IMG/VR virus record: IMGVR_UViG_3300032288_006230
Span: 1-25,773 of that record
DNA from: a virus
Strand: one strand, 5' to 3'
DNA length: 25,773 nucleotides
The position numbers and the translations under genes are program-made. Below are positions 4,022 to 23,582 of the stretch, piece by piece (positions within the stretch are counted from its first letter, which is position 1; the number at the start of each line of letters is the position of its first letter). The notes below the pieces were generated by a model. That model worked only from the letters and a program-made list of their open reading frames with translations. It had not been told where the DNA came from and did not search any database.

Positions 4022-4030
4022 GGTTCTGAT

Positions 4031-4270: not shown

Positions 4271-4282
4271 ACTGAAAGGTCT

Positions 4283-4969
4283 ATGATGACCATCCAATTT
4301 TCTTGGCCTGCAGGGAAATCTTCAGCCATTATGGTTGCTGAAAATATTTTAAGCAAAGAATTATGTTCTTCAATTATTGATGAGTCTTCAAAATATTATG
4401 AGAGACTGTTTATACCGGGTCCAGTCATCAGTGGCGTGATGGCTAATGTTAAAAATACAATGGATTTTAGTTGGTCAAAAGAGAATCTAATAAATAACAA
4501 CATTCCACCAGAGCCATTGTCTACATATGAAATGGAACTCTCAAAGGCAATCTTTACTTCTGTTGGATATTATCGTGAACAATTTAAGTGGCTTTGGGAC
4601 TGGGTGGGTATTTGCGATACGGGATTTCGTATGCAAAGATATATTCGTGGTGAAGGTTTCTATAGGGAACACATTGACGGCGGGCCGGTTCCTGTAGTTA
4701 TCTTGAATCGTGTTCTCGGTGCTGTCGTTTATCTGAATGATGTCGAAGTTGGTGGGGAAACATATTTTCGCGAACAAGACATTTATGTGCCTGCCAAAGC
4801 AGGGTCAATAGCGTTATTTCCTGCGTATTGGACACATCCACATCAAGGGTGCGTGCCAATTTCAAATGACAAATGGATTGTTAGTACATTCATATTGGAA
4901 AATAGCGAAAATCAGCCTATTGACATGATTGACAACGGAGGGTCTTTAGCCAATGAGCACCTATTATGA
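4283..4969 (+). CDS. 2OG-Fe(II) oxygenase (second copy)
   Basis: 228 residues. The double-stranded beta-helix core shows the iron ligands H130-x-D132 (YREHIDGG), the strand LGAVVYLNDVEVGGETYF, then AGSIALFPAYW leading to H185 and H187 in THPHQG (one of these is the distal iron ligand), and K197 in DKWIVSTFI as the likely 2-oxoglutarate anchor. This is the prolyl-4-hydroxylase type of layout. The start may be ATG 4283 or ATG 4286; AAGG at 4276-4279 is better spaced for 4286. The sequence differs much from the first copy, so the two are not a recent duplication. Substrate unknown. Confidence 0.83.
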   Translation: MMTIQFSWPAGKSSAIMVAENILSKELCSSIIDESSKYYERLFIPGPVISGVMANVKNTMDFSWSKENLINNNIPPEPLSTYEMELSKAIFTSVGYYREQFKWLWDWVGICDTGFRMQRYIRGEGFYREHIDGGPVPVVILNRVLGAVVYLNDVEVGGETYFREQDIYVPAKAGSIALFPAYWTHPHQGCVPISNDKWIVSTFILENSENQPIDMIDNGGSLANEHLL

Positions 4970-5576
4970 CCCATTAACTAATCGCACGTTACACAAGAGA
5001 CCCCCAGCATTCATGGTTAATGAAGTTTTTGAGCCATCTGTATTCATTAAATTAAATGAAGACTTATCTTTACTGCAGGAGACCAAAGTAATTTCCTATG
5101 AGCCATCCCTGGGTAGATTCGGCATAAATAGTACGGAGAAAACAGAGTCTCCATTAGCGGAATATCATGAAATTTTATTAGACAAAGCCCGGTCCATATT
5201 TACCCCAACATTAAAACCTACTTACTGTCTGTGGGTAACCTATCGTGGATTTAGGGCACAACTGCCGAATCATGTTGATGACAATGCCTGCACCTACACA
5301 ATGGACTTGTGTGTCTCATACAAAACCCAATGGCCCATCTATGTTGAAGAACAAGAGATGTTGCCTGAGCCAAACCAAGCAGTATGTTATTACGGTGAGG
5401 ACCAATATCATTGGCGCGAACGTTTTCCTGACCCTGCGAACAATGAAGTTCAAATGATTTTCTTTCATTTTGCCGAACCGGAACATTGGTATTTTACTAA
5501 GGGGCCATCCCACTTGCATGAAGTTGCCCGCGCCAGACACGAGTACCAGAAAAAGAACGGCATCAAAGGCACATGA
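4953..5576 (+). CDS. 2OG-Fe(II) oxygenase-like protein (third copy)
   Basis: 207 residues, beginning MSTYYDPLTNRTLHKRPPAF. The core carries H107-x-D109 (PNHVDDNACTY) and a distal H153 (QYHWRERF) followed by strands VQMIFFHF, the spacing expected for a jelly-roll dioxygenase. The Arg or Lys that binds 2-oxoglutarate is not obvious: the equivalent stretch reads NEVQMIFFHF, so cosubstrate use is less certain than in the other two. GGAGGG near 4937-4942 is the binding site, rather far upstream, and the gene overlaps the previous one by 17 bases. Function inferred from fold motifs only. Confidence 0.7.
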   Translation: MSTYYDPLTNRTLHKRPPAFMVNEVFEPSVFIKLNEDLSLLQETKVISYEPSLGRFGINSTEKTESPLAEYHEILLDKARSIFTPTLKPTYCLWVTYRGFRAQLPNHVDDNACTYTMDLCVSYKTQWPIYVEEQEMLPEPNQAVCYYGEDQYHWRERFPDPANNEVQMIFFHFAEPEHWYFTKGPSHLHEVARARHEYQKKNGIKGT

Positions 5577-5869
5577 ATAAAATTGTTCAGTTTGAACAGA
5601 AGATAGTTGATGCTGTCAAAACAATGTCCAAGAAAGAATATTGGAATCGTCCTAACATTGTTGAGGCATGGGGCTTTGCGACAAAGATTCTCATTATCTT
5701 TCCTGGTTTACTTCTGGGCAAGCAGTGGTGGTGGCTGTACATTTTTGCCATCGTTTCCAGTATTTGTTTAATTTGGTCATCTACTAAGAAAACATTGCCG
5801 ACCATTATCCTCTTCAATGTTGCTTGGGTTGTCTTGGCGACTGCTTCGATTGTGAAACATTTCGTATGA
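5573..5869 (+). CDS. small integral membrane protein (98 aa)
   Basis: After a charged N-terminal 30 residues there are about three hydrophobic segments: TKILIIFPGLLLG, WWWLYIFAIVSSICLIW and TIILFNVAWVVLATASIV. The gene starts inside the stop of the third dioxygenase (ATGA), and its own stop overlaps the glycosyltransferase start. Membrane protein of unknown function. Its place directly before a glycosyltransferase could mean it presents a lipid-linked substrate, but it could also be an unrelated envelope protein. Confidence 0.7.
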   Translation: MNKIVQFEQKIVDAVKTMSKKEYWNRPNIVEAWGFATKILIIFPGLLLGKQWWWLYIFAIVSSICLIWSSTKKTLPTIILFNVAWVVLATASIVKHFV

Positions 5870-6642
5870 TTTCTATTATTACGCCCACATATAACACTCC
5901 GCAGGAAATCCTTGCCCGCACTTGGGGTTCTCTGAAGTCTCAGACCTTTACGGACTGGGAGTGGGTTGTCTGGGACGACTCCACGAACAATGAGACTTGG
6001 CGGCAACTATATGGCTTCTGTGCCGACGAGCGCTATAAACTTGCTATGCACCGGTCCCATGTCCATTCTGGCTCTATTGGAGAAGTCAAGCGGAACGGCT
6101 TCATGGTCGCCAAGGGAGACATCTTGGTTGAACTTGACCACGACGATGAGTTAATGCCAGATGCTCTGCAACTCATTAATGATGCATTTAATAGTAGTCC
6201 AGAGGTTGGTTTTGTTTATTCAGACTGGTGCGAAATACTCCCAGATGGGCAGTCAGGACGCTATCCGAGCGGTTGGGCCTTTGGGTACGGTAGTGACTAT
6301 TGGGACGAGCAGCACGGGGTTTGGACCATGCGTGCGCCTGAACTTAATACCGTCACAATGAGACACATCGTCTCAGCGCCCAATCACGTTCGTGCGTGGC
6401 GAGCCGACGTATATCACGCCCTTAATGGCCATGACTGGAATCTGAAGGTTGCCGACGACTATGACCTATGTGTGAGAACTTTCCTGACCACAAAGTGTTG
6501 CCATATCCCAAAGATGATTTACAAACAGCATATTTCGCCAAAGACCGCTCAACGGCAGCAAAATGCGCTTATTCAAGAAAATGTTGCAATTATTGCAGAG
6601 AAATACAAGCCTTTTCTTGATGACCTATTCGATAGGCTCTGA
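5866..6642 (+). CDS. family 2 glycosyltransferase (GT-A fold)
   Basis: 258 residues starting MISIITPTYNTPQEILARTW, the classic first strand of GT2 enzymes, which transfer a sugar from a nucleotide-sugar donor. The metal/nucleotide acidic motif is D91-H-D-D-E95 (DHDDE), followed by the helix MPDALQLINDAF. A later VADDYDLCVR segment resembles the catalytic-base helix (ED motif). I chose ATG 5866, which overlaps the previous stop as ATGA; a longer frame from 5824 lacks the clean domain start. No membrane segment, so cytoplasmic. It ends the first gene island; possible acceptors are a virion protein, DNA or a cell-wall glycan. Confidence 0.88.
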   Translation: MISIITPTYNTPQEILARTWGSLKSQTFTDWEWVVWDDSTNNETWRQLYGFCADERYKLAMHRSHVHSGSIGEVKRNGFMVAKGDILVELDHDDELMPDALQLINDAFNSSPEVGFVYSDWCEILPDGQSGRYPSGWAFGYGSDYWDEQHGVWTMRAPELNTVTMRHIVSAPNHVRAWRADVYHALNGHDWNLKVADDYDLCVRTFLTTKCCHIPKMIYKQHISPKTAQRQQNALIQENVAIIAEKYKPFLDDLFDRL

Positions 6643-6709: not shown

Positions 6710-7090
6710 ATGGCACTTTACCCAGCAACCTTAACTGGCCCTACTTTATTAAGTATTGGAGCCACCGTAGCAGATGCCGCCCAGGTATATGATTCGGACA
6801 ACCCGGTGACATCACCGGGCTCAGCACGGGCAGCGAATGTTACCATTGTTAAACAAATCATCGTCTGCAATACCGACACTTCCGCCCGTACTTTTAGCCT
6901 CTATCTCGCCAATGATACTCCGGTTGCCATTGCCGACACGCTCTTTGAAGGAGTATCATTGGCTGCTGGGGAAACAAAGATTATTAATACCTCCATTGTA
7001 TTGCGTGCTGCCCAAGACCATAAACTGCATGCTCGCGCATCAGTCGACAGCAAAGTAGTACTTACCCTGGTTGGACTCGAGGAGTACTGA
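6710..7090 (+). CDS. probable virion protein, beta-rich (126 aa)
   Basis: Begins MALYPATLTGPTLLSIGATV. The body alternates short strands (TIVKQIIVCNTD, ARTFSLYLAND, GVSLAAGETKIINTSIVL, KVVLTLVGLEEY), the pattern of small jelly-roll or immunoglobulin-like decoration and tail proteins of phages. A strong binding site (AGAGGAG) and a fresh gap before it suggest it starts a structural transcription block. It overlaps the next gene by one base. Exact virion position unknown. Confidence 0.65.
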   Translation: MALYPATLTGPTLLSIGATVADAAQVYDSDNPVTSPGSARAANVTIVKQIIVCNTDTSARTFSLYLANDTPVAIADTLFEGVSLAAGETKIINTSIVLRAAQDHKLHARASVDSKVVLTLVGLEEY

Positions 7091-7650
7091 TGGCTGCTTG
7101 GGAAGTAAATAGATTCATCACAATTAATGGCTCAGATTCAATTGTTGAACTTGACGATATAGCGACGCTCACAAACAAAACTCTTACTGTACCAGCGCTG
7201 AATCGTCCAAAACTTGCCGTTTCTATTGAGGAGTGGACAGTAGCCGTAGGAACGGCAATTTCCACAAGCGCAGGAACGGTGGTCAACCTCGACCCGTTTA
7301 CTGCCAATACTTCTGCATGGATTTATACTGGCAACGCCACCAATACGTGGGTCCCCAACTTTGGCCACGCATCATCAACTAGTAATGAAGCCTCAATCAA
7401 CACTTTTCTTTCTGTCGGGGAAAGTCTTACAGTATCTATTGCTGCCTATATAACCAACGCTGCTGCATTTGCTTCAACATTGAAAATTGATGGACAAACT
7501 GCGTTTACTCCGTCATGGCAGGGAGCACTAGCGCCAACTTCCGGTAACGCATCATCATACGACGTCTATACCTATACAATTATTAAGACAGCGCTGAACT
7601 CGGGGATTCCAACATATGTTGTTTATGCTGCGCGGACAAGGTTTGCCTAA
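7090..7650 (+). CDS. probable tail-fibre-associated virion protein
   Basis: 186 residues. The short segment ATLTNKTLTVPALNRPKL near residue 26 is typical of phage tail fibre and baseplate proteins (TNKTL-type motif). The rest is Thr, Ser and Ala-rich beta structure with no cysteine. The ATG overlaps the previous stop (TGATG) and GAGGAG precedes it. No enzymatic motif. Inferred to be structural from composition, motif and position beside the long fibronectin-like protein. Confidence 0.65.
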   Translation: MAAWEVNRFITINGSDSIVELDDIATLTNKTLTVPALNRPKLAVSIEEWTVAVGTAISTSAGTVVNLDPFTANTSAWIYTGNATNTWVPNFGHASSTSNEASINTFLSVGESLTVSIAAYITNAAAFASTLKIDGQTAFTPSWQGALAPTSGNASSYDVYTYTIIKTALNSGIPTYVVYAARTRFA

Positions 7651-9492
7651 ATGCCGTTGGCTGTAAGTTTTACTGCAGCCTGTGCCCGTGGGCTAGGACT
7701 GGGCAATGGGGAAGCGCCGCGTGTCCCCACGAGCGTCTCTGTCACTGCTAGTGTTATCACAATAACTGCGACATACACAATTACGGTTTCAACATTCCCG
7801 CTTTCCCGTGTTGAGTATCGCATTGCTAGGGGTGGCGATGCTGGTCAATATACAGGGAGCCTCCCGGGAGCCAACGGCTCCAATTCAAGTGGGACCATCT
7901 CTACTCGTGTAACTGCGGCGGGAGCAACTGAAAATTTAGTGCACGCCACTGACTACACCATTTTTTTCCGTGCTATCGATGCCTCTGGGCAAATCAGCCC
8001 AGAGACCGCCGGAGATGCGTTTACAACTGCAGCCGAGGTTGCCCCAACTGCAGCAGCGCCAACTCTTGCCTCGCTGTCGGTTACTTCTCCAACCGCGCCG
8101 TACATTGACATTACATGGGCAGCGGGAACAGCAGGGACGTACTCAATCGCTACACGACAATATAGTGTTGTGGCGGGAACTGGGGCTGCCGGAACGTTCA
8201 CAACAGTAACCGGAAGTACTGGGACCGTGAGGGTTACCACGACTGCTGCAGGTGCAGCGATTTTGCCAGGCACCGCATATAGGGTATATATGAAATATAT
8301 CGCGTCAACGACGTCGACTGAGAGAACTGCGTCTACAGATATTACAACTGGCACGGAGGTTACCGCCAACGCCATTACGGCTCAAGCATCTAGTACTGGG
8401 CTGACGTTTGACCAGCATCGTACTCAATTTGTTATCTCGCGTGGCAATGTTCCGAATGCTACGACATATACGCAAAACTATCAGTTCGCCTATGGAACAT
8501 CCATAAACCCAACCAACTGGGCGTATTTCCCAAATTATGGTTTTGACTCGTCTGTCACCATTACTGGTTTAACAAGTGACGCAACCTACTATGCGCGCAC
8601 GCGAGCAATATCGACCGTAACGAGCGCAGCAGGCACGGCATCTGGCAATGCTAGCGTTCGATTGAATGCAGCCCTTCCGCCTACCCCGACAATTGCATTC
8701 CGCTCCATGAGTAGTTCCTCATATGGAACGGCTCAATTTACAATCAGCGGTAACGGTGGCTCGACTGACAGTGTTTATATTTATCGTCGACCAACATCTG
8801 GCACTAATACTGGAGCAACACCAGTGCTAAAAGCAACTGGTAGTCAAGATATCTCCGGCTATACGTCTGATGGCGGTACTGAATATTATGTTGCATATAA
8901 TTTTAATAGACATAGTGAAGCAAGCGCACCTTCAAACCAGATAAGATGGACCCGGCCAGCAAAAAACCAAGGATGGAATTCTGGCTACATTCGTCCAGAC
9001 CCAATTTACTTTTCAACAACCGCTGCTTGCACTTCCGAATTTGCTTACACCTTTGGGGCAGTACCAAGTTCAGATGAAGAAGTTGGGTACATCGCAGTTA
9101 CAGGGCTATCTGTGGACGGAATTCAACAAACAGGAAGTGGACTCAATGGTTGCTCCGCAACACAAACACTTGCCAATACGGGCAGCGGCAATTTGTTCTG
9201 GCTGTCAAATTCTTCTCATCCACAGTTTACTGAGGGTTTTGGTTTAAGTTCCACAACTGGGTTCTCTCCAAACTGGGGTACTGGAACATTTTCTACTCGT
9301 TCAATAACACTGAGCGCATGGGGTGGAAGCAATATCTCAGGAAAGTACTTTCTCGTTGGGACCGGCGTCGGCAGCAGAACTGGCGCATGTGCTGTGGGTT
9401 GTTCAGTTACAAGCGGAACACTCAATGCGTACCGTATGAAAAACTTTATAATTACCGGCGTCCAAACAACAGCAGGTTCTGTTGGTACGTGA
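7651..9492 (+). CDS. large virion protein with fibronectin-type-III-like domains
   Basis: 613 residues, very rich in Thr, Ser, Ala and Gly. About four successive beta domains of some 90-100 residues are suggested by repeats of the pattern RVEYRIA / TDYTIFFRAIDASGQ, TRQYSVV / TAYRVYMKYIAS, TTYTQNYQFAYG / ATYYARTRAIS and SVYIYRRP / TEYYVAYNFNRHS, each ending in a YxxxxRA-like strand as in fibronectin III folds. The last 190 residues are a different Gly/Ser-rich domain with four cysteines, perhaps receptor binding. No signal peptide, so it is not exported by the Sec route and fits a tail or fibre component that displays adhesive domains. It starts directly after the previous stop. Confidence 0.75.
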   Translation: MPLAVSFTAACARGLGLGNGEAPRVPTSVSVTASVITITATYTITVSTFPLSRVEYRIARGGDAGQYTGSLPGANGSNSSGTISTRVTAAGATENLVHATDYTIFFRAIDASGQISPETAGDAFTTAAEVAPTAAAPTLASLSVTSPTAPYIDITWAAGTAGTYSIATRQYSVVAGTGAAGTFTTVTGSTGTVRVTTTAAGAAILPGTAYRVYMKYIASTTSTERTASTDITTGTEVTANAITAQASSTGLTFDQHRTQFVISRGNVPNATTYTQNYQFAYGTSINPTNWAYFPNYGFDSSVTITGLTSDATYYARTRAISTVTSAAGTASGNASVRLNAALPPTPTIAFRSMSSSSYGTAQFTISGNGGSTDSVYIYRRPTSGTNTGATPVLKATGSQDISGYTSDGGTEYYVAYNFNRHSEASAPSNQIRWTRPAKNQGWNSGYIRPDPIYFSTTAACTSEFAYTFGAVPSSDEEVGYIAVTGLSVDGIQQTGSGLNGCSATQTLANTGSGNLFWLSNSSHPQFTEGFGLSSTTGFSPNWGTGTFSTRSITLSAWGGSNISGKYFLVGTGVGSRTGACAVGCSVTSGTLNAYRMKNFIITGVQTTAGSVGT

Positions 9493-9578: not shown

Positions 9579-12578
9579 ATGGGGAATATGACAAAACGGG
9601 GACTAATTTCATTTTGGCTTATTGCTGCCCTTGCTTGGTTCGCGCCTGCAAATGTTTATGCGACCAATGCGAACCTACTAGTTAATGGCAATTTTTCTGC
9701 CAACGAAGGTGGGTGGGTGGGCGCTAATGGTGGAGCGTCTTGCTCTGGAGGCTCACCAAGTCTTGGGATTTGGGGTGGTGGACCACAACTGACGTTTAGT
9801 TATATGCAGAATTCCGTATCACAGCAAGTGAACATTGCCTCCCCATCGGAACTAGAACTATCCTTCCTTGCCAATGGGCCTAATGGTGGAACATATAGCG
9901 CGACGATTTCCGACTCGGACCAATCTGTAACAACTGGAGTACTGACTGCGGGGGAAAATCAAGTATCCAATTTGAGGATAACCACGACACAACAAGATGA
10001 AATAGTTACCGTTACTTTTTCTGGCGTAGATTCTCTATTTTGGGCTGGATGCTATGGGCCAGTAATAAGGAATGCTTCGCTGACAGTAGTTACACAGCCA
10101 ACCTCGCTGGTAGTTACGAGTCTTTTGGATGACGGCTCCGTTGGAACGCTACGTTGGGCGATAAATCAAGCAAACGCCATATCTGGTGGAATTCATGACT
10201 CCATTACCTTTGGCGTTGATGGTACGGTTTCGTTAACGAGTGCGTTGCCTCAAATTACACAATCCGTGACAGTCACTGGAAACGGTATTGCCAACACAAT
10301 CATTGATGGAAATAACTCTTATCGTTTATTTGATGTTCGCACAGCAAGAACTTTAACTATCTCCAACATGACCCTCAAGAGAGGTCAATCAACGAGTGGT
10401 GGCTTAATTTATATCAATAACGGAACAGTCAATGCTTCCAATATGCGCCTAACTTCAATGACTGGCGGAAGTGCAGTGTTTACAAGCAACAACTTTTCGT
10501 ATGCTACTTACACAGACTCAACATTTGACAATCTGAGTGTTGGTATTGCTGGAGACTGGGGCAATACCCCATCTTTGGGTAATGGAGTTACTTCTTGGGA
10601 TACTTTTGATGACTCTGGTTTCTCAAACAGAACGTACGTTATTCGTGGACAATTCACAAACAACACATACGCCATCAATAATTATAGATTCACAAAAATT
10701 GAAGACTCCACATTCACAAATAACACTTATGCTGCGTTTATTACTGGATGGAACAGGTCGCAAATATATGGTTCTACATTCACCAATAATACGGTAGCAA
10801 TTTATCATTCGGCAACCATAACTGGTGGCGCAAATATGGGCACCGATAACCGAATCATTGTCGGTAATAGTTTTGTAAATAACACTTCTGCAATAGTTTT
10901 ATCTGACCAATATCAAGTCGGTGGAATTATTCAGAAAAATCAGAATTCAGCAAAAATATCTAATAATAATTGGGATGTTAATGCTTCACCTGGGGCAAAA
11001 TACATAACTTATTATCAATTCCCAGACAACACTACGCCACTATACGCCCTGCCTGACTCTACTGGCGTTCCGTGGTCGGGCACTGGAAACAGCGTCGTCA
11101 CAACCACGACGACAACTACAACAACCACCACTATCCCCGAGCCCACATTTAGTGGCGGAGGATGTGGCCCCTACAATAGAATAACCGTAACGGGTCAGTC
11201 TGCTGGTTCAATCTGGGGAGATGGCCCTTACACCGATGACTCTAATTTTGGCGTCGCTGCGGTTCATGCAGGATTAATTGACGTAGGAGAAACGGCAATA
11301 CTTGAACCGTATGGAGTTGATAATTATCCATACTTCTATGGCACAACAAAAAATGGTGTTTCTACTTCAGCATGGGGGAGTAGTTGGTGCGGTTTTTATA
11401 TAAAAATTGCAGGAACCGAAACTCCTGAGTATAACTATCCAGGTCCAACTACAACTACGACGACCACAACTACAACTACCACCACGACACCAGAACCAGA
11501 ACCTACAGAACCCCCAGATACGACACAGCCCGAACCGGAGCCTACGGACCCTCCGGACACAACAGAACCTGAGCCAGAACCTACTTTGCCTCCTGATACA
11601 ATACCTGAGGAGACAGATACTACTGATGGAGGTCCTGATGGAGGAACCGGAAGTTCAACCGACACAACGTCACCCGAAACAACCGTACCTGAATCAGCCC
11701 CAGAAGAAGAAACGCCAGATACGACACCGGACATACCGGTAGAAGAAGAAACGCCAGAGGCAGTCGTTGACGACATTCTGGCCGATGACCCCTCACCAGA
11801 AGAACTGACAGATGCTGTTGGTGAAGCATTGGCTGCGACTGAGTCAGAAGAAGAACTTGTCAGCGTTGCTACTGAACTCTTGACATCAGACCTTGACGCC
11901 GAGCAATTCGCTGCAGTAGTTGCCGAAGTGTTCAGTCAGGATTTATCCGACGAAGCACTCACTGAACTCGTTACTACGGTTTTTGAACAGGATTTGTCAG
12001 ATGAAGAAATTGCTGCCGTCGTAGGCCAGGTATTCACCGCTGACATTAGCGACGAAGCATTCGCTGAAGTTCTCAATACGGTATTTGAAGAGCCACTAAG
12101 CGACGATGCCTTTGCATCGGTCATTGATGCAATCTTAGACGAACCAATTTCGGATGAAGCATTCGATGAACTTGTTGACGTCCTCGGTAGTGACACGGTT
12201 AGTGATGAGCAAGTCGTGGCTGCAGTTGACTCCATTATTGAAAATGGCCTTTCTGAAGAGCAATCAATAAGCATTGCTACAAGTGGCGAGGTGTTGGAGT
12301 CAGTCACGGGCGACCAGGCTTCTGAAATCTTCGCCACCGTTCCAATTGGCGATATCTCGGACGCCGAGGCTGCTGCTCTTGTTGAGGCCGTACAGGACGC
12401 ACCTGTGGAAGTCAAAGAATCATTTGAGACAGAGATTAATATTTTTGCAGCAGGAAATGTAGACACTTATGTGCCACTTGGTTCTGAGGTTCCAGTAGGT
12501 ACTAGGCGTGTCATTATTGCTGCTGCGGCAGTTGTTGTTGCAGTAGCGCCAGTACCAGTATCTAGAAAAGGGAGATAA
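9579..12578 (+). CDS. secreted membrane-anchored beta-helix/LCCL surface protein
   Basis: 999 residues. In order: a Sec signal peptide (about 1-29, hydrophobic GLISFWLIAALAWF, likely cleavage after VYA); a domain starting NLLVNGNFSANEGGW, like carbohydrate-binding jelly rolls (30-175); a right-handed beta-helix (about 178-490) opening with SLLDDGSVGTLRWAINQANA; a Thr-rich linker (507-522); an LCCL domain (about 526-612) with GSIWGDGPYTDDS, AAVHAGLI and NGVSTSAWGS; a second Thr/Pro/Glu linker (from 623); ten acidic 17-residue repeats (738-907); and a C-terminal hydrophobic segment followed by SRKGR. This is a cell-surface protein architecture, not a normal virion protein. The start may be ATG 9579 or ATG 9588; the GGGGA between them is too close to 9588 to decide. 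Likely captured from an actinobacterial host, and expected outside the infected cell, held by the C-terminal helix. Confidence 0.85.
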   Translation: MGNMTKRGLISFWLIAALAWFAPANVYATNANLLVNGNFSANEGGWVGANGGASCSGGSPSLGIWGGGPQLTFSYMQNSVSQQVNIASPSELELSFLANGPNGGTYSATISDSDQSVTTGVLTAGENQVSNLRITTTQQDEIVTVTFSGVDSLFWAGCYGPVIRNASLTVVTQPTSLVVTSLLDDGSVGTLRWAINQANAISGGIHDSITFGVDGTVSLTSALPQITQSVTVTGNGIANTIIDGNNSYRLFDVRTARTLTISNMTLKRGQSTSGGLIYINNGTVNASNMRLTSMTGGSAVFTSNNFSYATYTDSTFDNLSVGIAGDWGNTPSLGNGVTSWDTFDDSGFSNRTYVIRGQFTNNTYAINNYRFTKIEDSTFTNNTYAAFITGWNRSQIYGSTFTNNTVAIYHSATITGGANMGTDNRIIVGNSFVNNTSAIVLSDQYQVGGIIQKNQNSAKISNNNWDVNASPGAKYITYYQFPDNTTPLYALPDSTGVPWSGTGNSVVTTTTTTTTTTTIPEPTFSGGGCGPYNRITVTGQSAGSIWGDGPYTDDSNFGVAAVHAGLIDVGETAILEPYGVDNYPYFYGTTKNGVSTSAWGSSWCGFYIKIAGTETPEYNYPGPTTTTTTTTTTTTTTPEPEPTEPPDTTQPEPEPTDPPDTTEPEPEPTLPPDTIPEETDTTDGGPDGGTGSSTDTTSPETTVPESAPEEETPDTTPDIPVEEETPEAVVDDILADDPSPEELTDAVGEALAATESEEELVSVATELLTSDLDAEQFAAVVAEVFSQDLSDEALTELVTTVFEQDLSDEEIAAVVGQVFTADISDEAFAEVLNTVFEEPLSDDAFASVIDAILDEPISDEAFDELVDVLGSDTVSDEQVVAAVDSIIENGLSEEQSISIATSGEVLESVTGDQASEIFATVPIGDISDAEAAALVEAVQDAPVEVKESFETEINIFAAGNVDTYVPLGSEVPVGTRRVIIAAAAVVVAVAPVPVSRKGR
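11097..11135 (+). repeat. ACN-repeat coding a threonine linker (first)
   Basis: Runs of ACA, ACC and ACG triplets encode an unbroken threonine stretch linking the beta-helix to the LCCL domain. Such tracts are typical O-glycosylated or extended linkers in actinobacterial surface proteins and may vary in length by slippage. Confidence 0.75.
11444..11625 (+). repeat. threonine tract and PEPT/PPDT linker repeats
   Basis: A second ACN tract (11444-11491) is followed by tandem units of the type PEPEPTEPPDTT, PEPEPTDPPDTT and PEPEPTLPPDT. They form an extended proline-rich spacer between the LCCL domain and the acidic repeat region, suited to span a cell wall. Confidence 0.75.
11790..12299 (+). 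repeat. ten tandem 51-base units coding 17-residue acidic helical repeats
   Basis: Residues 738-907 fall into ten units of exactly 17, for example LSDEALTELVTTVFEQD, LSDEEIAAVVGQVFTAD, ISDEAFAEVLNTVFEEP and LSDDAFASVIDAILDEP. Each begins [LIV]S[DE][ED] and is probably a short helix ending in an acidic turn. The units are diverged at the DNA level, so the array is old. Function unknown; a rigid stalk is plausible. Confidence 0.8.
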
Positions 12579-12580
12579 TA

Positions 12581-12790
12581 ATGAAACTTATAAAGAAATT
12601 TTTTGGGTTGCTTTGGGATGCCATTGCGGAAATGAACTGGACTCTGTCTGGGACGATTCTTGTGCTCATAACTCTAAGCGGCGATACGCGTGACCTAGGT
12701 CTCAAGTTATTCATTGCCTCAACGGTCGTTAACTTGGCTCAAATAATGGTAACCAAACATAAAGAGTCCAAAGAGCCTGCCAAGTCATAG
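12581..12790 (+). CDS. small membrane protein, holin-like candidate (69 aa)
   Basis: Begins MKLIKKFFGLLWDAIAEMNW; two hydrophobic segments (WTLSGTILVLITLSG and LGLKLFIASTVVNLAQIMV) are followed by a charged tail KHKESKEPAKS. GGGAGATAATA before the ATG is a good binding site formed from the end of the preceding gene. Small size, two membrane segments, charged tail and position directly before the endolysin are the usual features of holins, but three other small membrane genes nearby compete for that role. Confidence 0.55.
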   Translation: MKLIKKFFGLLWDAIAEMNWTLSGTILVLITLSGDTRDLGLKLFIASTVVNLAQIMVTKHKESKEPAKS

Positions 12791-12792
12791 CG

Positions 12793-12798
12793 TATAAT
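12793..12798 (+). promoter_or_regulatory. TATAAT -10 element before the endolysin gene
   Basis: A perfect TATAAT followed by TA (TATAATTA), 28 bases before the ATG at 12826, in the gap after the small membrane protein. No clear -35. TTGGAGA at 12814-12820 serves as the ribosome binding site. Confidence 0.45.
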
Positions 12799-12825
12799 TA
12801 GTAGAAACGTCTATTGGAGATTTAT

Positions 12826-13629
12826 ATGAGCAAATATCCTTTTGTTAAACTGGTAGTGCCAACGGCATTGAAGGCATACAAGAACGGTCAACTTCCGGCG
12901 AATCTTTTGGCAAAAGTCAAAACTGGTGGACAAATGTATGCCCCAGTTGCAGAACAATTCAACAAGATGTACGACGCTGCTCTTGCTGCTGGTTTCAAAC
13001 TCAAAAATGTGGGCGACTACCGCTCATTTGAGGGCCAGTTGAACATGTTCATGGACCGCTACGTCACTACCGACACTGGTACCGGCGTCAAGCGCCAGTA
13101 CGACGGCAAGACTTGGTATCTCAAGAAGGGCAAGGCCCCTTCAGCAGCGCCGGACCCCACGGGCCTCAAGGGCTCAAATCATGGCTGGGGTCTCGCGATT
13201 GACCTTGGGTACGACGTCAACGGCAAACTCACCTCAATGGGTGGCGCTTGTGGCGACTGGATGTGCGCGAATGCACCCAAGTGGGGCTTCTACCTCCAGG
13301 GCGACAACCCTGCTTCAAAAGAATTTGAACTATGGCACTGGCAATACGCCCTCGGCGATGCATTGCCTAATGGCTCTGTCGCGTCCGCCCCTGCAGCGGC
13401 TCCAGCAGCACCTGCTGGCGGTGGCATGAAATTTGATTACCCAGGAGCGCCTATCAAACTTGGCTCAAAAGGTCCTGGCGCCGCTCTCGTTCAGGCAATT
13501 ATTGGCGCAAAAGCAGACGGTGACTTTGGTCCGAAGTCTGTTGCCTCGCTCAAAGCATGGCAAACCGCCAACGGTCTTACTGCAGATGGTTCGGTCGGCC
13601 CTATTACATGGAAGAAAATGTTTGGCTGA
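12826..13629 (+). CDS. endolysin: M15 (VanY-type) peptidase with peptidoglycan-binding domain
   Basis: 267 residues from ATG 12826; the in-frame TTG at 12814 is part of the binding site TTGGAGA, so I reject it as start. Zinc-peptidase motifs of the D-Ala-D-Ala carboxypeptidase/endopeptidase family M15 are complete: H119 and D126 in SNHGWGLAIDLGYD, E168 and H171 in EFELWHWQY. After an Ala/Pro linker (about 184-203), residues 205-267 form a peptidoglycan-binding type 1 domain (KLGSKGPGAALVQAIIGAKA, DGDFGPKSVASLKAWQ, DGSVGPITWKKMFG). No signal peptide, so a holin should release it. It would cut the peptide part of host peptidoglycan. Its local base composition is richer in G and C than its neighbours. 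Confidence 0.92.
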   Translation: MSKYPFVKLVVPTALKAYKNGQLPANLLAKVKTGGQMYAPVAEQFNKMYDAALAAGFKLKNVGDYRSFEGQLNMFMDRYVTTDTGTGVKRQYDGKTWYLKKGKAPSAAPDPTGLKGSNHGWGLAIDLGYDVNGKLTSMGGACGDWMCANAPKWGFYLQGDNPASKEFELWHWQYALGDALPNGSVASAPAAAPAAPAGGGMKFDYPGAPIKLGSKGPGAALVQAIIGAKADGDFGPKSVASLKAWQTANGLTADGSVGPITWKKMFG

Positions 13630-13649
13630 TATTCCCAGGAAGGGGAGCC

Positions 13650-13841
13650 ATGAAAATTACTAAATTAATAATTGGTTTGTCTTTGCTGCTTACCCCAGTT
13701 GTGTCCTCCTGTGGCGATGGTGGTTATAGATATCCATGCCAAGACCCAAATAACTGGGAGAACGAAGAATGCAATCCACCTATTTGCGAAGTAAATGGAC
13801 ATTGTTGGTACACGCTTGTCGGAAAAGGAAGTCAGCCGTGA
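13650..13841 (+). CDS. small cysteine-rich lipoprotein in the lysis region (63 aa)
   Basis: Starts MKITKLIIGLSLLLTPVVSS followed by C21: a basic start, a hydrophobic stretch and a lipobox (VSSC), so C21 should be lipidated. Four more cysteines follow (C30, C41, C46, C52) in a mature part of only 43 residues, which could make two disulphides. AGGAAGGGGA precedes the ATG; an earlier in-frame start at 13557 lies inside the endolysin gene and is rejected. The place beside the endolysin recalls lysis lipoproteins, but it could also be a superinfection-exclusion lipoprotein. Confidence 0.75.
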   Translation: MKITKLIIGLSLLLTPVVSSCGDGGYRYPCQDPNNWENEECNPPICEVNGHCWYTLVGKGSQP

Positions 13842-14107
13842 GTAAAAAACGCTATACCGCAGACGAATTAGACGCTCGTCTGAAATTTGTTATTGGTTGC
13901 GTCCTCGGTGGAGTACTCCTTATTACGACAGGGGCAATCTTGTATGCACTCGTGTTTGTTACCCAGCCCATCGGAGTTCAGGCCGAAAACGACAAAATGT
14001 TTTTTAGCGTACTTTCAAGCGTTGCAACTTTCATTACTGGAACACTTGCTGGTTTGATGATTTCTAATTCACGCAAAGGCAAAAACGACTCGGATTCGGA
14101 AATCTGA
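13838..14107 (+). CDS. two-helix membrane protein, holin candidate (89 aa)
   Basis: GTG 13838 overlaps the lipoprotein stop (GTGA) and is preceded by AAAGGAAG. The protein starts VSKKRYTADELDARLKFVIG, has membrane segments at about 17-41 and 54-76, and ends in a charged tail (SRKGKNDSDSEI). Two helices, a short loop and a charged tail are the layout of class II holins. It is my best holin candidate among the four small membrane proteins here. Confidence 0.65.
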   Translation: MSKKRYTADELDARLKFVIGCVLGGVLLITTGAILYALVFVTQPIGVQAENDKMFFSVLSSVATFITGTLAGLMISNSRKGKNDSDSEI

Positions 14108-14286
14108 TGATTGAGATTGTGGTCGCCCTCATCGGTTCCATGAGCATTGTTCTTGTTGCTCTTGTGGAGAAGGGTCGTCGTGAGAATAAAGATGACCACA
14201 ATCGCGTTGTTCAATCCTTGGACCGTATAGAAAATAAAATTGATGGACATATCAATGACCATGCCAAAGGTGAATTTGACGAATAA
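14107..14286 (+). CDS. small membrane-anchored coiled-coil protein (59 aa)
   Basis: ATG 14107 overlaps the previous stop (TGATG). The product MIEIVVALIGSMSIVLVALV continues with a basic EKGRREN and a heptad-like tail (VVQSLDRIENKIDGHIND). One N-terminal membrane segment plus a short coiled coil resembles accessory lysis proteins and the mycobacteriophage DUF2746-type membrane proteins. The exact overlap with the previous gene supports it as real. Confidence 0.7.
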   Translation: MIEIVVALIGSMSIVLVALVEKGRRENKDDHNRVVQSLDRIENKIDGHINDHAKGEFDE

Positions 14287-14318
14287 AGATTTAAACAAGC
14301 AATTAAAGGGGACAATTA

Positions 14319-15695
14319 ATGAAGGCATTTCGTCGTATCTCGTTATATCTAATAGGTGTTTTTGGTTTGCTTGGGATGGCTTCTTTGCTGTCGCCGACGT
14401 CATTGGCTCCCGTTTATGCAACCGCAAGTAGTGGTGGTCCAATAGTCCTAGATGGTATGGACCCGGTGTGTCACGCTGTATACGGCGAGAATACAGACCA
14501 GTACATCGCAAAAGTCCTAAAAAGTGTTTATGACCAGTCATCCATGCCTGGGAACAGCGGCAAAATTGCCATTCTTGGAACATCGGGCCCCACAAATGCC
14601 GGCGGGTGCGGGGGCAACTGGAACACATTGCTGTCTGGTAAGTTTCTAAGCCAATTTGCAACAGCCCCAACAATTCAATTTATTTCAACAACGACAGAAT
14701 TGGATGCCTTTTTCTCAAGTGGCATCACTAGTTCGGCCCCTCGTATGATTTGGATTGCAGACGACTGGAGTCGTTCTTCCGCAGTAAATACCATCCTTAC
14801 CACTAACGCTGAAAAAATTGCTGACTTCGTCAACTCTGGTGGCGGACTATTCGCAAACAGCAATGAGTATGGTTGGCTAACTGCACTTCTCCCTAGCGCC
14901 GTATATAACAATGGCGGATGCAATGGCGGCCCAGAAGCAACGACAGAAGGGACCACAGACTTTGGTCTCACGAATACTATCGTTGCAGCATGTTGGCATG
15001 GTTACTTTACTGGCAATGTAGGAACACTCAAGACTCTCGTTGACTACCCATACCCGTCACCAACAGATACCCGTAAGGCCGTTTCTATCGGTGGCGGCGA
15101 AGTCTCATTGCCGAGTTCATTCACTCTTTCTATTAGTCCAGAAAATCCCCCTGCTGGAACACCACTCACAATCACCGCTACGGCACAGACGCTTGCTGGG
15201 GTGCCTCAGGCTGGCGTTACCGTGAGTGTTGTTGTCAGTACTGGTCCTGATGCTGGACAAACATTTACTGCTACAACAAATTCCACAGGAATTGCAACAA
15301 TCACAATCAATACTTCTTCCGTTGGGACGAACGTTTATACCGCTACAGCGACTGTTAATGGTGTTGCAAAAACAGTGTCAACAACGGTCACTTGGTCCGC
15401 TGCTCCCACGACAACAGTAGCCCCAACAACTACGACAGAGGCTCCCGCAACGACTACCACAGAAACTCCCGTAGCAACAACAGAGCCAGCCCCTACGACA
15501 ACAGAGGCCCATCACGAGCACACAACACCGACCGATGCTCCCCACGAGCACACAACAACGACTGTTGGCTATCTAGTTGAAGAATTACCTCAAACTGGCA
15601 TAGATACTGATGAGATAAAATGGTTTGCTATGGCGCTTCTTGGCACTGGTTTGCTAGTAGCACTTATTACAAAAAAGACGAGGGTAGCAAAATGA
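14319..15695 (+). CDS. LPXTG-type cell-wall-anchored surface protein
   Basis: 458 residues. A signal peptide (about 1-35, SLYLIGVFGLLGMASLL, cleavage near VYA) leads to a 210-residue globular domain that includes IADFVNSGGGLFANSNEYGW, reminiscent of the ThuA/glutamine-amidotransferase-like fold. An Ig-like (Big_1-type) domain follows (about 268-363), then a Thr-rich linker with His-containing repeats (HHEHTTPTDAPHEHTTTT). The C-terminus is a full sorting signal: L423-P-Q-T-G427, a hydrophobic segment (WFAMALLGTGLLVALI) and a basic tail KKTRVAK. A sortase would cut between T and G and link the protein to peptidoglycan. No sortase gene is in the window, so a host enzyme is implied. AAAGGGGAC precedes the ATG. 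It sits between lysis-region membrane genes. Confidence 0.85.
   Translation: MKAFRRISLYLIGVFGLLGMASLLSPTSLAPVYATASSGGPIVLDGMDPVCHAVYGENTDQYIAKVLKSVYDQSSMPGNSGKIAILGTSGPTNAGGCGGNWNTLLSGKFLSQFATAPTIQFISTTTELDAFFSSGITSSAPRMIWIADDWSRSSAVNTILTTNAEKIADFVNSGGGLFANSNEYGWLTALLPSAVYNNGGCNGGPEATTEGTTDFGLTNTIVAACWHGYFTGNVGTLKTLVDYPYPSPTDTRKAVSIGGGEVSLPSSFTLSISPENPPAGTPLTITATAQTLAGVPQAGVTVSVVVSTGPDAGQTFTATTNSTGIATITINTSSVGTNVYTATATVNGVAKTVSTTVTWSAAPTTTVAPTTTTEAPATTTTETPVATTEPAPTTTEAHHEHTTPTDAPHEHTTTTVGYLVEELPQTGIDTDEIKWFAMALLGTGLLVALITKKTRVAK
15585..15599 (+). other. sortase recognition motif LPQTG (coding)
   Basis: The codons TTA CCT CAA ACT GGC encode LPQTG, followed by 8 residues, a membrane segment and four basic residues. 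Spacing matches canonical sortase substrates of Gram-positive bacteria. Confidence 0.85.
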
Positions 15696-15952
15696 AACAA
15701 TTAGAAACTCTAAAGCCAATTCTATATAGAATTTTAGCAACGTTTACTGTGTCTGGATTAGGCGTAGTTGGTGCTGGTGCAATTACAAATATCCCATTAT
15801 GGAAAGCAGTCATGATGGCTGGATTTGGAAGTGTGGCACAAGTTATCGAAGGTTTAGCCAGGGCGTACCTAAATGACGGTAAACTATCAGTAGCCGAAAT
15901 TGAAGAAGTTTTTCACCAGGCGGAGGATTCACTCCCGGAGGAAAGCAAGTAG
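15692..15952 (+). CDS. small membrane protein, holin-like (86 aa)
   Basis: ATG 15692 overlaps the stop of the LPXTG gene (ATGA). Two hydrophobic segments (ILYRILATFTVSGLGVVGAG and PLWKAVMMAGFGSVAQVIEG) are followed by LARAYLNDGKLSVAEIEEVF and an acidic tail. I recall similar proteins from actinobacteriophage lysis regions, with a LARAYLDDGKL-like helix, annotated as holin or membrane protein; the exact family name I cannot confirm. It may work with the 89-residue protein as a two-component holin. Confidence 0.65.
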   Translation: MKQLETLKPILYRILATFTVSGLGVVGAGAITNIPLWKAVMMAGFGSVAQVIEGLARAYLNDGKLSVAEIEEVFHQAEDSLPEESK

Positions 15953-16034
15953 GCTGCGCTCAAAAACGTATGCTTAAATTATAAATCTCAACAGAGTTTC
16001 GGCAGCCGCAAACACGATGCGATAGCCTCAATAT

Positions 16035-16367
16035 ATGCTTAAAGTTGACGATGGAGAAATGCTCTGGCATAACGATGGCCATTCAATATCGTTGCGCATC
16101 AATAAGTCCGATGTAGAGATAATTGACATTCTATGCCCAACTGGACGTACTGGGGAATGCCACCATGAACGCGTTGGCTGTATCGTCAGTTACTTCATTA
16201 GTCGCTTTGGTCTTGACTGCAATGTCGGTGTTTGCCCAGCAATGCCAAATTTGCAGATTTGCTGGTCTCTTGTAGGCGACCCCTATGAAGTTGATGCATG
16301 CCAATTGTGGTTCGTCCCATTGGAAGACGAAGTATTTTATGCTTGGCTAGCAACGAAGACCAACTAG
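16035..16367 (+). CDS. cysteine-rich conserved hypothetical protein (110 aa)
   Basis: Nine cysteine or histidine ligand candidates: C34, C42, H43, H44, C49, C62, C67, C76 and C89. The core (RFGLDCNVGVCPA, ICWSLVGDPYEVDACQLWF, PLEDEVFYAWL) resembles a hypothetical family I associate with uncultured aquatic phages. The start is uncertain: ATG 16035 has no clear binding site, while an internal ATG at 16059 follows GGAGAA closely. The 82-base gap before it has AT-rich stretches (TTAAATTATAAA near 15972) that could hold its promoter. It meets the leftward WhiB gene end-to-end with 9 bases between, and I see no hairpin terminator. Function unknown; metal binding is possible. Confidence 0.6.
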   Translation: MLKVDDGEMLWHNDGHSISLRINKSDVEIIDILCPTGRTGECHHERVGCIVSYFISRFGLDCNVGVCPAMPNLQICWSLVGDPYEVDACQLWFVPLEDEVFYAWLATKTN

Positions 16368-16376
16368 CCCACGACA

Positions 16377-16748
16377 TCACACCTTGATGGCGTTACGTTC
16401 TTTGAGTACTTTTGCTATTTTCTTTCGCTTAACATTGCTTTCAGGAAGTTCACGAAGGCGCTCGTATTCAACTGTCAATTTGAGCCGTTCAATATAGGCG
16501 ATATTGCCCTTGCGATGGCGATGAGACCAGCCAGCGGTGCCGCCCCACACCCCGGATACCTCGTGATTTTCTAGAGCGTATTCCGCACACTTGACAATGA
16601 CTGAGCACCCAGAACAGAAGTCCTCGGCTTGTCTATGTCTACTGCGAACATTCGTTTCTTCAGGGTCGGGGAAGAAAATTTCTGGGTCAGCACCGCGACA
16701 CTTGGCGCGAGAAAACCATGCAACATTGGCAATATTGTCTGTAGTCAT
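16377..16748 (-). CDS. WhiB-family iron-sulphur transcriptional regulator
   Basis: 123 residues from MTTDNIANVAWFSRAKC. The four cluster-binding cysteines are C17, C45, C48 and C54 (C-x2-C-x5-C in FCSGCSVIVKC), followed by the G66-V-W-G-G70 turn and a basic C-terminus (WSHRHRKG and KRKKIAKVLKERN) that should touch DNA. WhiB proteins hold a 4Fe-4S cluster and bind the major sigma factor's region 4. I chose the ATG at 16748 because the longer frame overlaps the neighbouring gene. It is transcribed after the 1027-residue gene with a 34-base gap. Confidence 0.92.
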   Translation of the reverse strand: MTTDNIANVAWFSRAKCRGADPEIFFPDPEETNVRSRHRQAEDFCSGCSVIVKCAEYALENHEVSGVWGGTAGWSHRHRKGNIAYIERLKLTVEYERLRELPESNVKRKKIAKVLKERNAIKV

Positions 16749-16782
16749 TGGGCCACAGCCTAGCGATGATGGCCCAAAATTA

Positions 16783-19700
16783 CTACCAGTCTGGCGGTAA
16801 TGCTTCCTCGTTGAGGTCGCGGAAATCGTACGACAGCGCAATGCTCTTGTAACTAAAACGCTCTGCAAGTCTGCCGCGCCTGTCAATGCCAAACATTTCG
16901 TCGCTCTTAATATTGATTCCCTTGTCTGCGAGCCAAGCAACCAATTCACCGGGCTGAATACCTAGTGCTCTCGCTACGTCACGTCGAATAGTTCCCATCC
17001 GTGCGCCGGTCAACTCGCCTGGAGACTTGCCTTTGAGTATTTGGTACATCTCGCCAAGTACTTCATTTTTTCCTTTGCCACTTGCCAGCAATTCCTTGGC
17101 AGTACTTAGTGCAACCTGCGTGGCATTGGCGCCAGGCTTGGAGCCACGCTGTGCATATGCGCCACGAGACTGAACCATGCCCTCAATGAGGAGACGGATG
17201 CCCGCATCTGGGATATCAAATTTCTTGCTCAGCGCAGCAATTGCCTTGACTTGCTGTTGGTTATTTTCTTGCATTGCCTGTGGGAACGCATTGCGAATTT
17301 CAGCAACAAAACCCGCCCATTCCTTTATTTTACTTGGGTCCGAAAGCATTGAATTGCCGAAGATATTGCCAAGACCACGGAACGGGTCGCTGCCATTAAC
17401 TCGCGTAATGCCTCCACCGCCAGGGTATAGGGCATCAATGACTTGCTGAGTAACGCCAGATTTGCCCTTCCATCTTTCTTCGTACTCACTCTTGAGTAGT
17501 CCTCCGAGCGTTCTATCTACAAGTAATCTTGCAAGAACTGGGGATACATCATTTAGTCGTTGAAAAATGTCCTCATCTAGTTGTTCTTTTCGGCCCACTT
17601 CTTCATTCTTGTCTCTAATGAGAGCCTTCAGTCTATTAAAGAAGTTATTGTATGCTTTTTCTGCTTCATCGTTATCGGCTAGATTGGGTAATTGCACAAA
17701 CCGCCCGCTAGTAGAAGCGTCCTCTGGCGAGGTGCCTCCAGCAATATTGCTACCGAGACCACTACCACCACCTGTGCCTTGTTCTGAAGGCGCCTGGTCA
17801 AAGCCACTACCGCCCATATCTATTGATACGTTGGCTCTGTCGGGGTCGTTGTCGTCGTAGGTTCCAAATGTGTCGCCGAACTCTCCACTATCATCGTCAC
17901 TCCCAGCAGGAGCATCAAGTGACAATGCGAGTTTTCGCCTTTGAATAACTTTTTGCTTGCCAGTCTTTGGGTCGATTTCTGGGACCTTATTCCCGTCGGC
18001 ATCTAATAAAAACGTGCCGTCTTTGGCCCTTACCCACTGCGGTTCAGGCTCAAACAAGACAGCCTTTTGTTGGGCCTCTTTGCGTCCTAGTGCGCCACTG
18101 AGAGTTCTTTCCAGCGCCTTGACCATTTCCGCAATGGTATTCGGTCGCGGATTGCCATCCTTGTCATTGACAAATGGGTGCCCTCCAAGTGGGAACTTCA
18201 AAGCCTCTGGGAATCCTAAAGTATCAGAAACTTTTTTATCCCACCATTTTGTGCTGCCATCTTTATCCACGGGGACCCATGCCAAGAATGAAAAGTCACC
18301 CTTCTCCATCATTGGCATATAGTTAGCCACAACTGCGGCAAGAATCTCCTGACGAAGGTCTTCTGTCATCCCTTGCGCTTTTGCTGATACACCAGCAGTA
18401 CGCGGTCCATCGTATCCAGGCCAGTTGAACATACTACCTTGTACGGCCGCCATCACTGCGGGCAGCCATGTATCTTCAACAAACTGCTTGAGTTTACGTT
18501 GTTCTCTTTGACTTAATGGCAGGCCATCCTGTTGAGGGAATAATGACTCTCCAAGTTTGCGCTTACCTGCATTGGATGCAGAGCGAGTTGAGCGGATTGA
18601 TAGGAGTGTTGATTCTGGGGTGAAGGTAGCAACTTGATGGTCGCGACTTACAGATTCCCCGATTGATTCATGATTCGGTGGCCGCTTGAGGCCTGACGAA
18701 TTAGATTTCATTCGGTCATAAATATCCTTACGGACCGCCGCATTGGTTTCTCTCTTGAACGCTTGATACAGCGGCTCATTCTTCTTCTTGGCAGCCAATG
18801 ATGCCTTTGTATGGAATTGAACTTCATAGTTAAATCCACGCGGGTCTTGAATCATTGCATTTACGCCACTATATGGGTCCTTGGAGCCCCAGTAGTTCCA
18901 AGTAGTGACGCGAGACCCATCTGCTCTAAGCGTAGCCAACGCCGACTTGACGAAATCGGAGTAGTCGTCAACACCGTCTGTAACAAACGTATAACGCAAT
19001 GCGTCATTCATCTGTACTGCCGTTGCACCTATATCGCCATCAAAATTGCCCTTGAGACGCTCAATCTTATTTGCAAACGAGTCAAGTGTTTTGAATTTTT
19101 TATCCAAATCAGCAAGTTTGGCAAAGCCGCCAGATGCTGACTCAATATCTTTCATTTTCTTGGTTACTTGAGGTTCGTTTCTACGGATAACCCTCTGTGC
19201 TGCTTTTGCAACTTCTACCGTATCGTCGGAAGGCTTTTCGCTACCCTTGGATGTAGAGCGCAACGACGAAATTGCAGGCGAACCTGGCAACGCTGGGCGC
19301 GCCCACGGGGTTCCCTCTTGTACGGTTCCATCATTATCGCCGTCAATGGCTTTCGGGTCGTATTTTTCAACAGACCGACCAACTCGCCTAAGCGTCTGGC
19401 CCAATCCTTTGGCCTGGATTCCAGAACCTACACGCACTTCTGCTTCAAAGTCGCGACGGTTTTGCTTTATCTCTTTTGCAAATTCTGTGTCTTCCTCTTG
19501 TGCAGTTGATGAACTAATTATGTCTTCATCAGGGAAGTAAGTGGCAATTTCGCGTGCTTTTTTATATAGCCATTTTGTATATTCGTAAGCATCATCTTCA
19601 GAAACAAAACGGCCAAGGTGTCCGCCTGTCTTTTTGTAGAGACGGACTGATTGCTGGTCGCTCATATCCTGGCCAATTGGATTTATCTTTGGCAAGATTG

Positions 19701-19866: not shown

Positions 19867-19949
19867 TATTCCTCCAGTGTTGGGGCACTGTCATGCATCT
19901 AAACACAACAACAATGATAGTACGAAAATGAATTAATGACAGGCACGCC

Positions 19950-23581: not shown

Positions 23582-23582
23582 A

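Follow-up and report, generated by a model that had tools for sequence, protein, structure and literature searches.

The window analysed here, the whole 25,773-base linear IMG/VR virus record IMGVR_UViG_3300032288_006230, which is probably a fragment, carries on its plus strand an open reading frame (ORF) at 9579–12578 that runs from an ATG to a stop codon and encodes a protein of 999 amino acids. On balance, we favour the view that this protein belongs to a large family, so far undescribed, of glycan-binding proteins that phages encode, that are exported through Sec and held at the membrane, and that are displayed on infected Actinomycetota, where they most likely mask receptors. Of the possible placements, the surface of the infected cell has the best support, because the family combines signal-like N termini, a C-terminal hydrophobic and basic segment, an obligate partner protein with two transmembrane segments (the two-TM protein) and surface-anchored neighbours. 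No description of the family was found in the open-access literature, which was the only literature searched.

Distribution of the stalk and anchor module

The C-terminal part of the protein, a repeat stalk followed by an anchor, is found far more widely than the protein as a whole. With the whole protein as query, we found 44 viral loci, whereas the stalk/anchor module as query found at least 445 loci in IMG/VR; from each scan we read the 80 best loci, and the records are metagenomic contigs that differ greatly in size. By contrast, a scan of 84,980 bacterial and archaeal genomes for the same module returned one locus. This lone locus is the sole match in its genome. As in phages, it is fused to a two-TM part and has a VanY-like ORF behind it, which places it, to judge from these adjoining sequences, in a phage-like lysis-gene context. 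As a control for sensitivity, the peptide patterns used in the genome scan are present in 25 of 62 members that were found independently through the two-TM gene (around 40%), so bacterial copies this close, if common, would mostly have been seen. Within the collections searched, the stalk is found almost only in viruses.

For the protein as a whole, this distribution contradicts one claim of an earlier reading of the window made from its letters alone (the sequence-only reading), namely that the protein looks like a host-type adhesin taken from a bacterium. Recent capture of an adhesin from the host is very unlikely, and largely refuted for the stalk, as the collections searched confine the stalk, anchor and partner to phages, and the viral contigs that carry the module vary widely in length (46 of them were searched over their full length). 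What speaks for a host origin concerns the outer part of the protein: LCCL, beta-helix, fn3 and PA14 domains occur in cellular proteins, and the beta-helix has a GC content of 41% versus 49–50% for the stalk. Individual outer modules may thus be of cellular origin, and the lower GC content suggests that the beta-helix may have been acquired. Lysogenic conversion was considered separately and is disfavoured, the module being almost absent from genomes.

The members compared are 86 unique proteins of 359–1566 amino acids, with a signal-like N terminus in every complete one. The stalk module is present once per record in 46 of 46 records searched whole, any extra matches being fragments of a single ORF. 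A search of 50,697 phage records gave one match at E ≤ 0.001, in Actinomycetia phage DSL-LC01 (protein WJZ48438.1); the same stalk/anchor module is present in three UniProt/BFVD entries from uncultured Caudovirales phages (A0A6J5QPU1, A0A6J5P167 and A0A6J5Q6G8). These four proteins carry no functional description; their annotation is either 'hypothetical' or the name of a single module. The window ORF itself has no match in PHROGs at E ≤ 0.1, and so no known structural PHROG, and belongs to no NCBIfam family (two matches, both far under cut-off); PADLOC returned nothing.

The two-TM partner

The partner proteins are 52–69 amino acids long, with two transmembrane segments and the signature WTLAGTxLVLITLSGxT. 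Across these 86 members, hidden Markov model (HMM) comparison found 18 in-frame fusions of partner and surface protein and 64 cases in which the adjacent downstream gene encodes the partner; in the remaining four, the two parts are fused as judged by eye (L098 and L099), the partner lies one gene further (L019) or the locus is cut at the contig end (L037). The linkage is equally tight in the reverse direction. Searching with the two-TM protein alone found at least 503 loci; of the best 80, all but one are preceded by the stalk module (79 loci), the 80th lying at a contig end. The two-TM protein is an obligate partner: every testable member has it downstream of or fused with the surface protein, and no exception was seen, although the contigs are related and the counts do not represent independent events. 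Where the genes are separate, their spacing ranges from −4 to +79 and is −4 or −1 in 25 of 64 cases, a pattern that resembles translational coupling.

The two-TM protein is separate in the window and fused in loci L004, L012, L014, L015, L016, L024, L028, L033, L039 and L043; in some fused forms a purine-rich stretch precedes an internal ATG, a possible second start.

Fusion in a subset of loci, together with the position of these small two-TM proteins beside the endolysin, would also suit a role in lysis, with the two-TM protein acting as holin or antiholin and the exported protein sensing outside signals, such as a superinfecting phage, to time lysis. We regard this as improbable: 86 of 128 loci encode, in this region, a homologue of a separate r1t-like holin candidate, and the two-TM protein has no match in Pfam or NCBIfam and falls only in PHROG families without lysis function (PHROG 29041, of unknown function), which leaves it outside the known holin families.

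Architecture of the surface protein

From N to C terminus, a signal-peptide-like segment is followed by a jelly roll, a beta-helix, a Thr-rich linker, an LCCL domain, a Thr/Pro/Glu-rich linker, the stalk and the anchor (Table 1). This is the module order given by the sequence-only reading, and its signal peptide and C-terminal anchor also hold, both of them, like all signal peptides and membrane helices reported here, assigned by hydropathy and motif. The N-terminal modules were modelled with AlphaFold2 (AF2) on an alignment of 18 sequences from the window and viral contigs. The binding domain expected near the N terminus is modelled as a jelly roll (residues ~30–172) whose Foldseek matches are the sugar-binding structures CBM4, CBM16 and Fbs1, at E values of about 1e-5 to 1e-4; the modelled beta-sandwich is that of a jelly-roll-type carbohydrate-binding module (CBM), and glycan binding is predicted from the fold match. 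Residues 175–512 are likewise predicted to form a three-sheet, right-handed solenoid, a right-handed parallel beta-helix, in agreement with the sequence-only reading, and align to known right-handed beta-helices (lyases, tailspikes and the adhesin PfbA) with VIA-align Z scores of 20–27. A search for catalytic residues by conservation in the beta-helix found conserved Asp, Arg and Gly positions but no assignable enzyme family.

The repeat stalk also withstood a direct test. Over residues 720–890, self-identity at a lag of 17 is 0.35, a value reached in 0 of 2,000 shuffles, whose maximum was 0.21. An AF2 model of the C-terminal 310 residues, built on a 60-row alignment, has a mean predicted local distance difference test score (pLDDT) of 87.6 and contains around 15 short helices, one per 17 residues in the repeat, and then a hydrophobic helix at residues 973–989. 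Foldseek comparison of the stalk with the PDB gave no match at E ≤ 0.001, and comparison with a viral structure library gave eight at the same threshold, seven of them named uncultured Caudovirales phage proteins and one nameless. Weak Pfam matches of the stalk to GatB_Yqey, Glycos_trans_3N, DUF445 and MgtE_N lie under the cut-offs where these are shown and were set aside as generic helical-repeat similarity.

The protein ends in RR, the hydrophobic segment VIIAAAAVVVAVAPVPV and the basic tail SRKGR. In relatives, around 17–18 hydrophobic residues are likewise followed by K/R, with almost no D/E, and this end recurs in the 64 members with a separate partner gene irrespective of overlap with the partner’s ribosome-binding site. 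An origin of SRKGR as a mere by-product of the next gene’s Shine–Dalgarno sequence is ruled out, since the basic tail persists at spacings of 9–79 nucleotides. The C terminus, VGTRRVIIAAAAVVVAVAPVPVSRKGR, contains no LPxTG and is thus not that of a sortase substrate.

The LCCL domain of the window protein, also anticipated by the sequence-only reading, was recovered by profile search: PF03815 matches residues 541–602 at 28.3 bits (gathering cut-off 22.6; E 2e-6), and a six-frame search of the whole record again places the domain above the cut-off at 32.2 bits. The match spans only profile positions 32–92 of 96, and the AF2 model of this region is of low confidence, so the profile match is the evidence for the domain. 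The LCCL domain of cochlin has four cysteines that form two disulphides, whereas seven aligned phage LCCL domains share two invariant cysteines; we therefore class the phage domain, by its profile match, as a divergent two-cysteine form. The domain’s position within the family varies from residue 49, just past the signal sequence, to residue 606. LCCL is uncommon in viruses, as had been supposed, but the window protein is no singleton: there are 29 viral LCCL loci, in 23 of which the ORF is confirmed to carry the stalk module.

The other LCCL ORFs fall into two kinds. Those of L226 (truncated), L228 and L236 resemble the relatives, L228 and L236 sharing the family-type N terminus, and those of L233, L234 and L235 resemble other phage proteins. 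The L233 (3995–5539) and L235 (1064–4237) ORFs lack a signal-like N terminus and are perhaps tail proteins. The L228 protein (3188–5305) has a signal-like N terminus, an RR-hydrophobic-RKR tail and a two-TM gene downstream, with no recognisable stalk; tail and partner together may represent a minimal unit.

Exchangeable outer modules and a putative tail/fibre gene

Pfam searches of 58 members found fn3 (11), PA14 (11), beta-helix (7), LCCL (5), EPTP (3), GLEYA (2) and L-type lectin (1) domains. The outer modules (CBM-like, beta-helix, LCCL, PA14, fn3, GLEYA and lectin) are interchangeable on the conserved C-terminal module. The same division is visible between close relatives. Over 11469–20579 the window shares 93.7% identity with its sister phage L003, and the break point at about 11469 separates a conserved C-terminal half of the surface protein from a variable N-terminal half; L003 lacks the beta-helix, and both its LCCL domain and its tail/fibre gene have diverged. 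L065 carries the same divergent block as L003, flanked on both sides by conserved DNA. In these few phage pairs (L003 and L065), the outer half and the adjoining tail/fibre gene vary together while the C-terminal half is kept. Receptor mimicry would have gained support had the surface protein shared modules with other ORFs of its locus; such sharing was looked for and not found.

Hosts

WhiB, an actinobacterial marker, is present in 34 of 46 family records and in 1 of 14 control genomes (Corynebacterium), and on this basis we assign the hosts to Actinomycetota. A terminase-family match in 16 of 41 records, mostly long ones, adds little, as the same profile matches 11 of the 14 control genomes. 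The one complete genome is that of DSL-LC01, a phage from a lake metagenome whose predicted host is an actinobacterium. It appears that many viruses of lake and estuary actinobacteria make an exported sticky protein held by the small membrane protein of the next gene.

Two WhiB-like ORFs occur in the 26-kb window, at 16377–16949 on the minus strand (PF02467, 66.7 bits) and at 23565–23882 on the plus strand (recognised from its sequence alone). A homologue of HslV-family peptidases lies at 22928–23581 (PHROG 1040, E 6e-21), and its DSL-LC01 counterpart stands beside a WhiB gene.

Proposed function

In the mechanism that we propose, the surface protein would be made with the lysis-region genes and exported through Sec. 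The C-terminal module, predicted to be an alpha-solenoid of acidic 17-residue repeats that ends in a short hydrophobic helix and a basic tail, would lift the outer part away from the cell and anchor it, and the dedicated two-TM protein, to which it is genetically linked, would hold or work with this anchor. As the outer cassette of swappable modules varies with the neighbouring tail/fibre gene, it probably binds host-surface glycans. Displayed late on the infected actinobacterium, the protein would most likely mask receptors, which would spare the capture of other phages, and of the phage’s own progeny meeting debris.

Display on the infected cell would also be consistent with adhesion in trans, in which a stalked, lectin-like head binds neighbouring hosts or particles and progeny are released near new hosts. 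This is possible, and as a function it is a close second to receptor masking, although taken by itself we think it rather unlikely. The long stalk, the large multi-module proteins, the PA14, GLEYA, lectin, LCCL and fn3 domains typical of adhesins and flocculins, and the presence of the bacterial adhesin PfbA among the beta-helix matches all fit adhesion; the hosts, on the other hand, are thought to be planktonic, and co-variation with the tail/fibre gene is compatible with masking and adhesion alike. Two considerations chiefly tip the balance, by a small margin, towards receptor masking: the co-variation of the outer half with the tail/fibre gene, and the action on receptors of known phage surface proteins such as Cor.

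Several points weigh against masking by a protein displayed on the infected cell. The window gene directly follows tail-like genes (6710–7087 has a PHROG tail match at E 0.0028), a usual site of virion fibres. The C-terminal hydrophobic segment, around 17–18 residues and often with Pro, is short for a membrane helix, and the RR that precedes it would lie on what is presumed to be the outside. Both export and topology are read from hydropathy, and receptor masking from co-variation in few phage pairs.

The first of these points also bears on a role in the virion, which the sequence-only reading had excluded. If the N-terminal hydrophobic stretch were not a working signal peptide, the protein could be a side fibre or decoration, in keeping with its gene’s place immediately 3′ of tail-like ORFs, with the beta-helices and carbohydrate-binding modules common in tailspikes, and with the occurrence of LCCL domains in phage proteins that lack a signal-like start (L233 and L235). 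We consider this unlikely, because all complete members have both the signal-like N terminus and the C-terminal hydrophobic/basic segment, because the two-TM partner is obligate, because the conserved end is the C-terminal one and the variable end the N-terminal one, the opposite of most tail fibres, and because the DSL-LC01 gene lies outside the structural cluster, in a separate minus-strand group around 27 kb from the terminase–portal genes. Placement on the infected cell, as the sequence-only reading had it, therefore stands as the best supported, with a virion role retained as a rival.

Neighbouring genes

Table 1. Features of the surface-protein locus, with positions in the window
Feature	Coordinates	Strand	Evidence
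Putative tail/fibre protein	7651–9492	+	Adjoins tail-like ORFs 6710–7090 and 7090–7650; blastn comparison
Signal-peptide-like N terminus, residues 1–28 (MGNMTKRG-LISFWLIAALAWFAP-ANVYA)	9579–9662	+	Sequence; hydrophobic N-terminal segment in every complete relative
CBM-like jelly roll, residues 30–172	9666–10094	+	AF2 model; Foldseek CBM4/CBM16, Fbs1
Predicted right-handed parallel beta-helix, residues 175–512	10101–11114	+	AF2 pLDDT mostly >90; VIA-align Z up to 26.7
Thr-rich linker, beta-helix to LCCL	11103–11144	+	Sequence
LCCL domain, two-Cys form; Pfam core 11199–11384	11151–11417	+	PF03815; alignment of 7 phage LCCL domains
Thr/Pro/Glu-rich linker	11448–11753	+	Sequence; L003 nucleotide break point at about 11469
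Alpha-solenoid stalk, phage-specific; acidic 17-residue repeats at about 11784–12242	11754–12434	+	AF2; lag-17 test
C-terminal anchor: RR, hydrophobic helix (residues 973–989), basic tail SRKGR	12495–12575	+	AF2 helix; pattern conserved in 64 members
Two-TM partner, 69 amino acids (WTLSGTILVLITLSGDTRD...)	12581–12790	+	Sequence; Shine–Dalgarno GGGAG overlaps SRKGR codons
Endolysin (VanY/M15 + PG_binding_1)	12814–13629	+	Pfam; PHROGs endolysin
63-residue lipoprotein, lipobox VSSC, motif CGYDGxYRYxCQDPxNWExxECxPPxC	13650–13841	+	Conserved phage family
Second secreted protein, LPQTG + hydrophobic segment + KKTRVAK	14319–15695	+	Sequence; sortase-type signal
r1t-like holin candidate (called ORF begins at 15620; true start probably internal)	15692–15952	+	PHROG 443 holin, E 7e-5

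Two further genes of the window encode proteins with surface-anchoring signals. The small lipoprotein downstream of the endolysin belongs to no Pfam, PHROG or NCBIfam family. All 21 homologues aligned, each from a locus of a surface-protein family member, retain the lipobox Cys, and the motif of Table 1 is strictly kept, in its narrower form CGYDGxYRYxCQDPENWExEECxPPxC. The product of ORF 14319–15695, which has no match among the 50,697 phage records, ends in LPxTG, a hydrophobic segment and a basic tail, as expected of a sortase substrate; among 21 ORFs, its relatives carry canonical yet varied forms of the motif (LPITG, LPATG, LPTTG, LPDTG, LPVTG, LPETG and LPSTG). This ORF also contains a ‘GGPIVLDGMDPVCH’ domain. 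The presence of three anchoring types of surface protein in one stretch fits a programme of remodelling the infected cell's surface.

Adjoining the tail genes, ORFs 40–663, 1765–3240, 4283–4969 and 5824–6642 encode 2OG-Fe(II) oxygenases, a tryptophan halogenase (PF04820, E 2e-101) and a glycosyltransferase, with a GC content of 41%, below that of the rest of the window; DSL-LC01 likewise has a tryptophan halogenase beside collagen-like genes.

It is rarely considered that phages might equip the surface of the infected cell with large adhesins that they themselves encode. More tentatively than the placement itself, we suggest a widespread surface display belonging to the phages, in which a lectin that swaps modules on a stalk, and that has an anchor found only in phages and an obligate two-TM partner, would, together with the lipoprotein and the sortase substrate, rebuild the infected-cell surface in many unrelated actinophages. 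Aquatic actinobacteria are believed to be under heavy phage pressure, and the stalk module, with at least 445 confirmed loci on contigs that often carry WhiB, looks common in their phages. If the reading is right, a gene pair that is currently annotated as ‘hypothetical protein’, and is now named, would offer a testable handle on superinfection, adsorption to cell debris or cell–cell contact in actinophages.

Comparison with known systems

Sortase-anchored (LPxTG) adhesins of Gram-positive bacteria resemble the window protein in their signal peptide, outer binding modules, long repeat stalk and C-terminal hydrophobic segment with basic tail. Unlike them, ORF 9579–12578 has no LPxTG and a phage-specific anchor with a dedicated partner, whereas its neighbour at 14319–15695 has a real LPxTG. 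PfbA of Streptococcus pneumoniae (4mr0), a surface adhesin, likewise has a beta-helix (Z 25.0, root-mean-square deviation 3.5, 287 residues aligned), but the two share 17% sequence identity and PfbA has no stalk module. The tailspikes of Sf6, HK620 and CBA120 (TSP3) share the beta-helix (VIA-align Z about 22) and variation between close phages; tail fibres and tailspikes differ from the window protein in that the latter has a predicted signal peptide, a conserved C terminus rather than N terminus, and a membrane partner.

Proteins with LCCL domains include, besides cochlin, the Plasmodium LAPs (PMC11285972). The phage LCCL core scores above the Pfam cut-off as a member of this group, from which it differs in its partial profile alignment and its two invariant cysteines.

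Closest in proposed function are phage proteins placed on the host surface. Llp of T5 is a phage superinfection-exclusion surface protein. Cor of phi80 and N15 is phage-encoded, is exported to the host surface and acts on the receptor (PMC11436027). Cor and Llp are small and bind a protein receptor, whereas the family described here consists of multi-module proteins of 359–1566 amino acids, each with a helical stalk and a two-TM partner.

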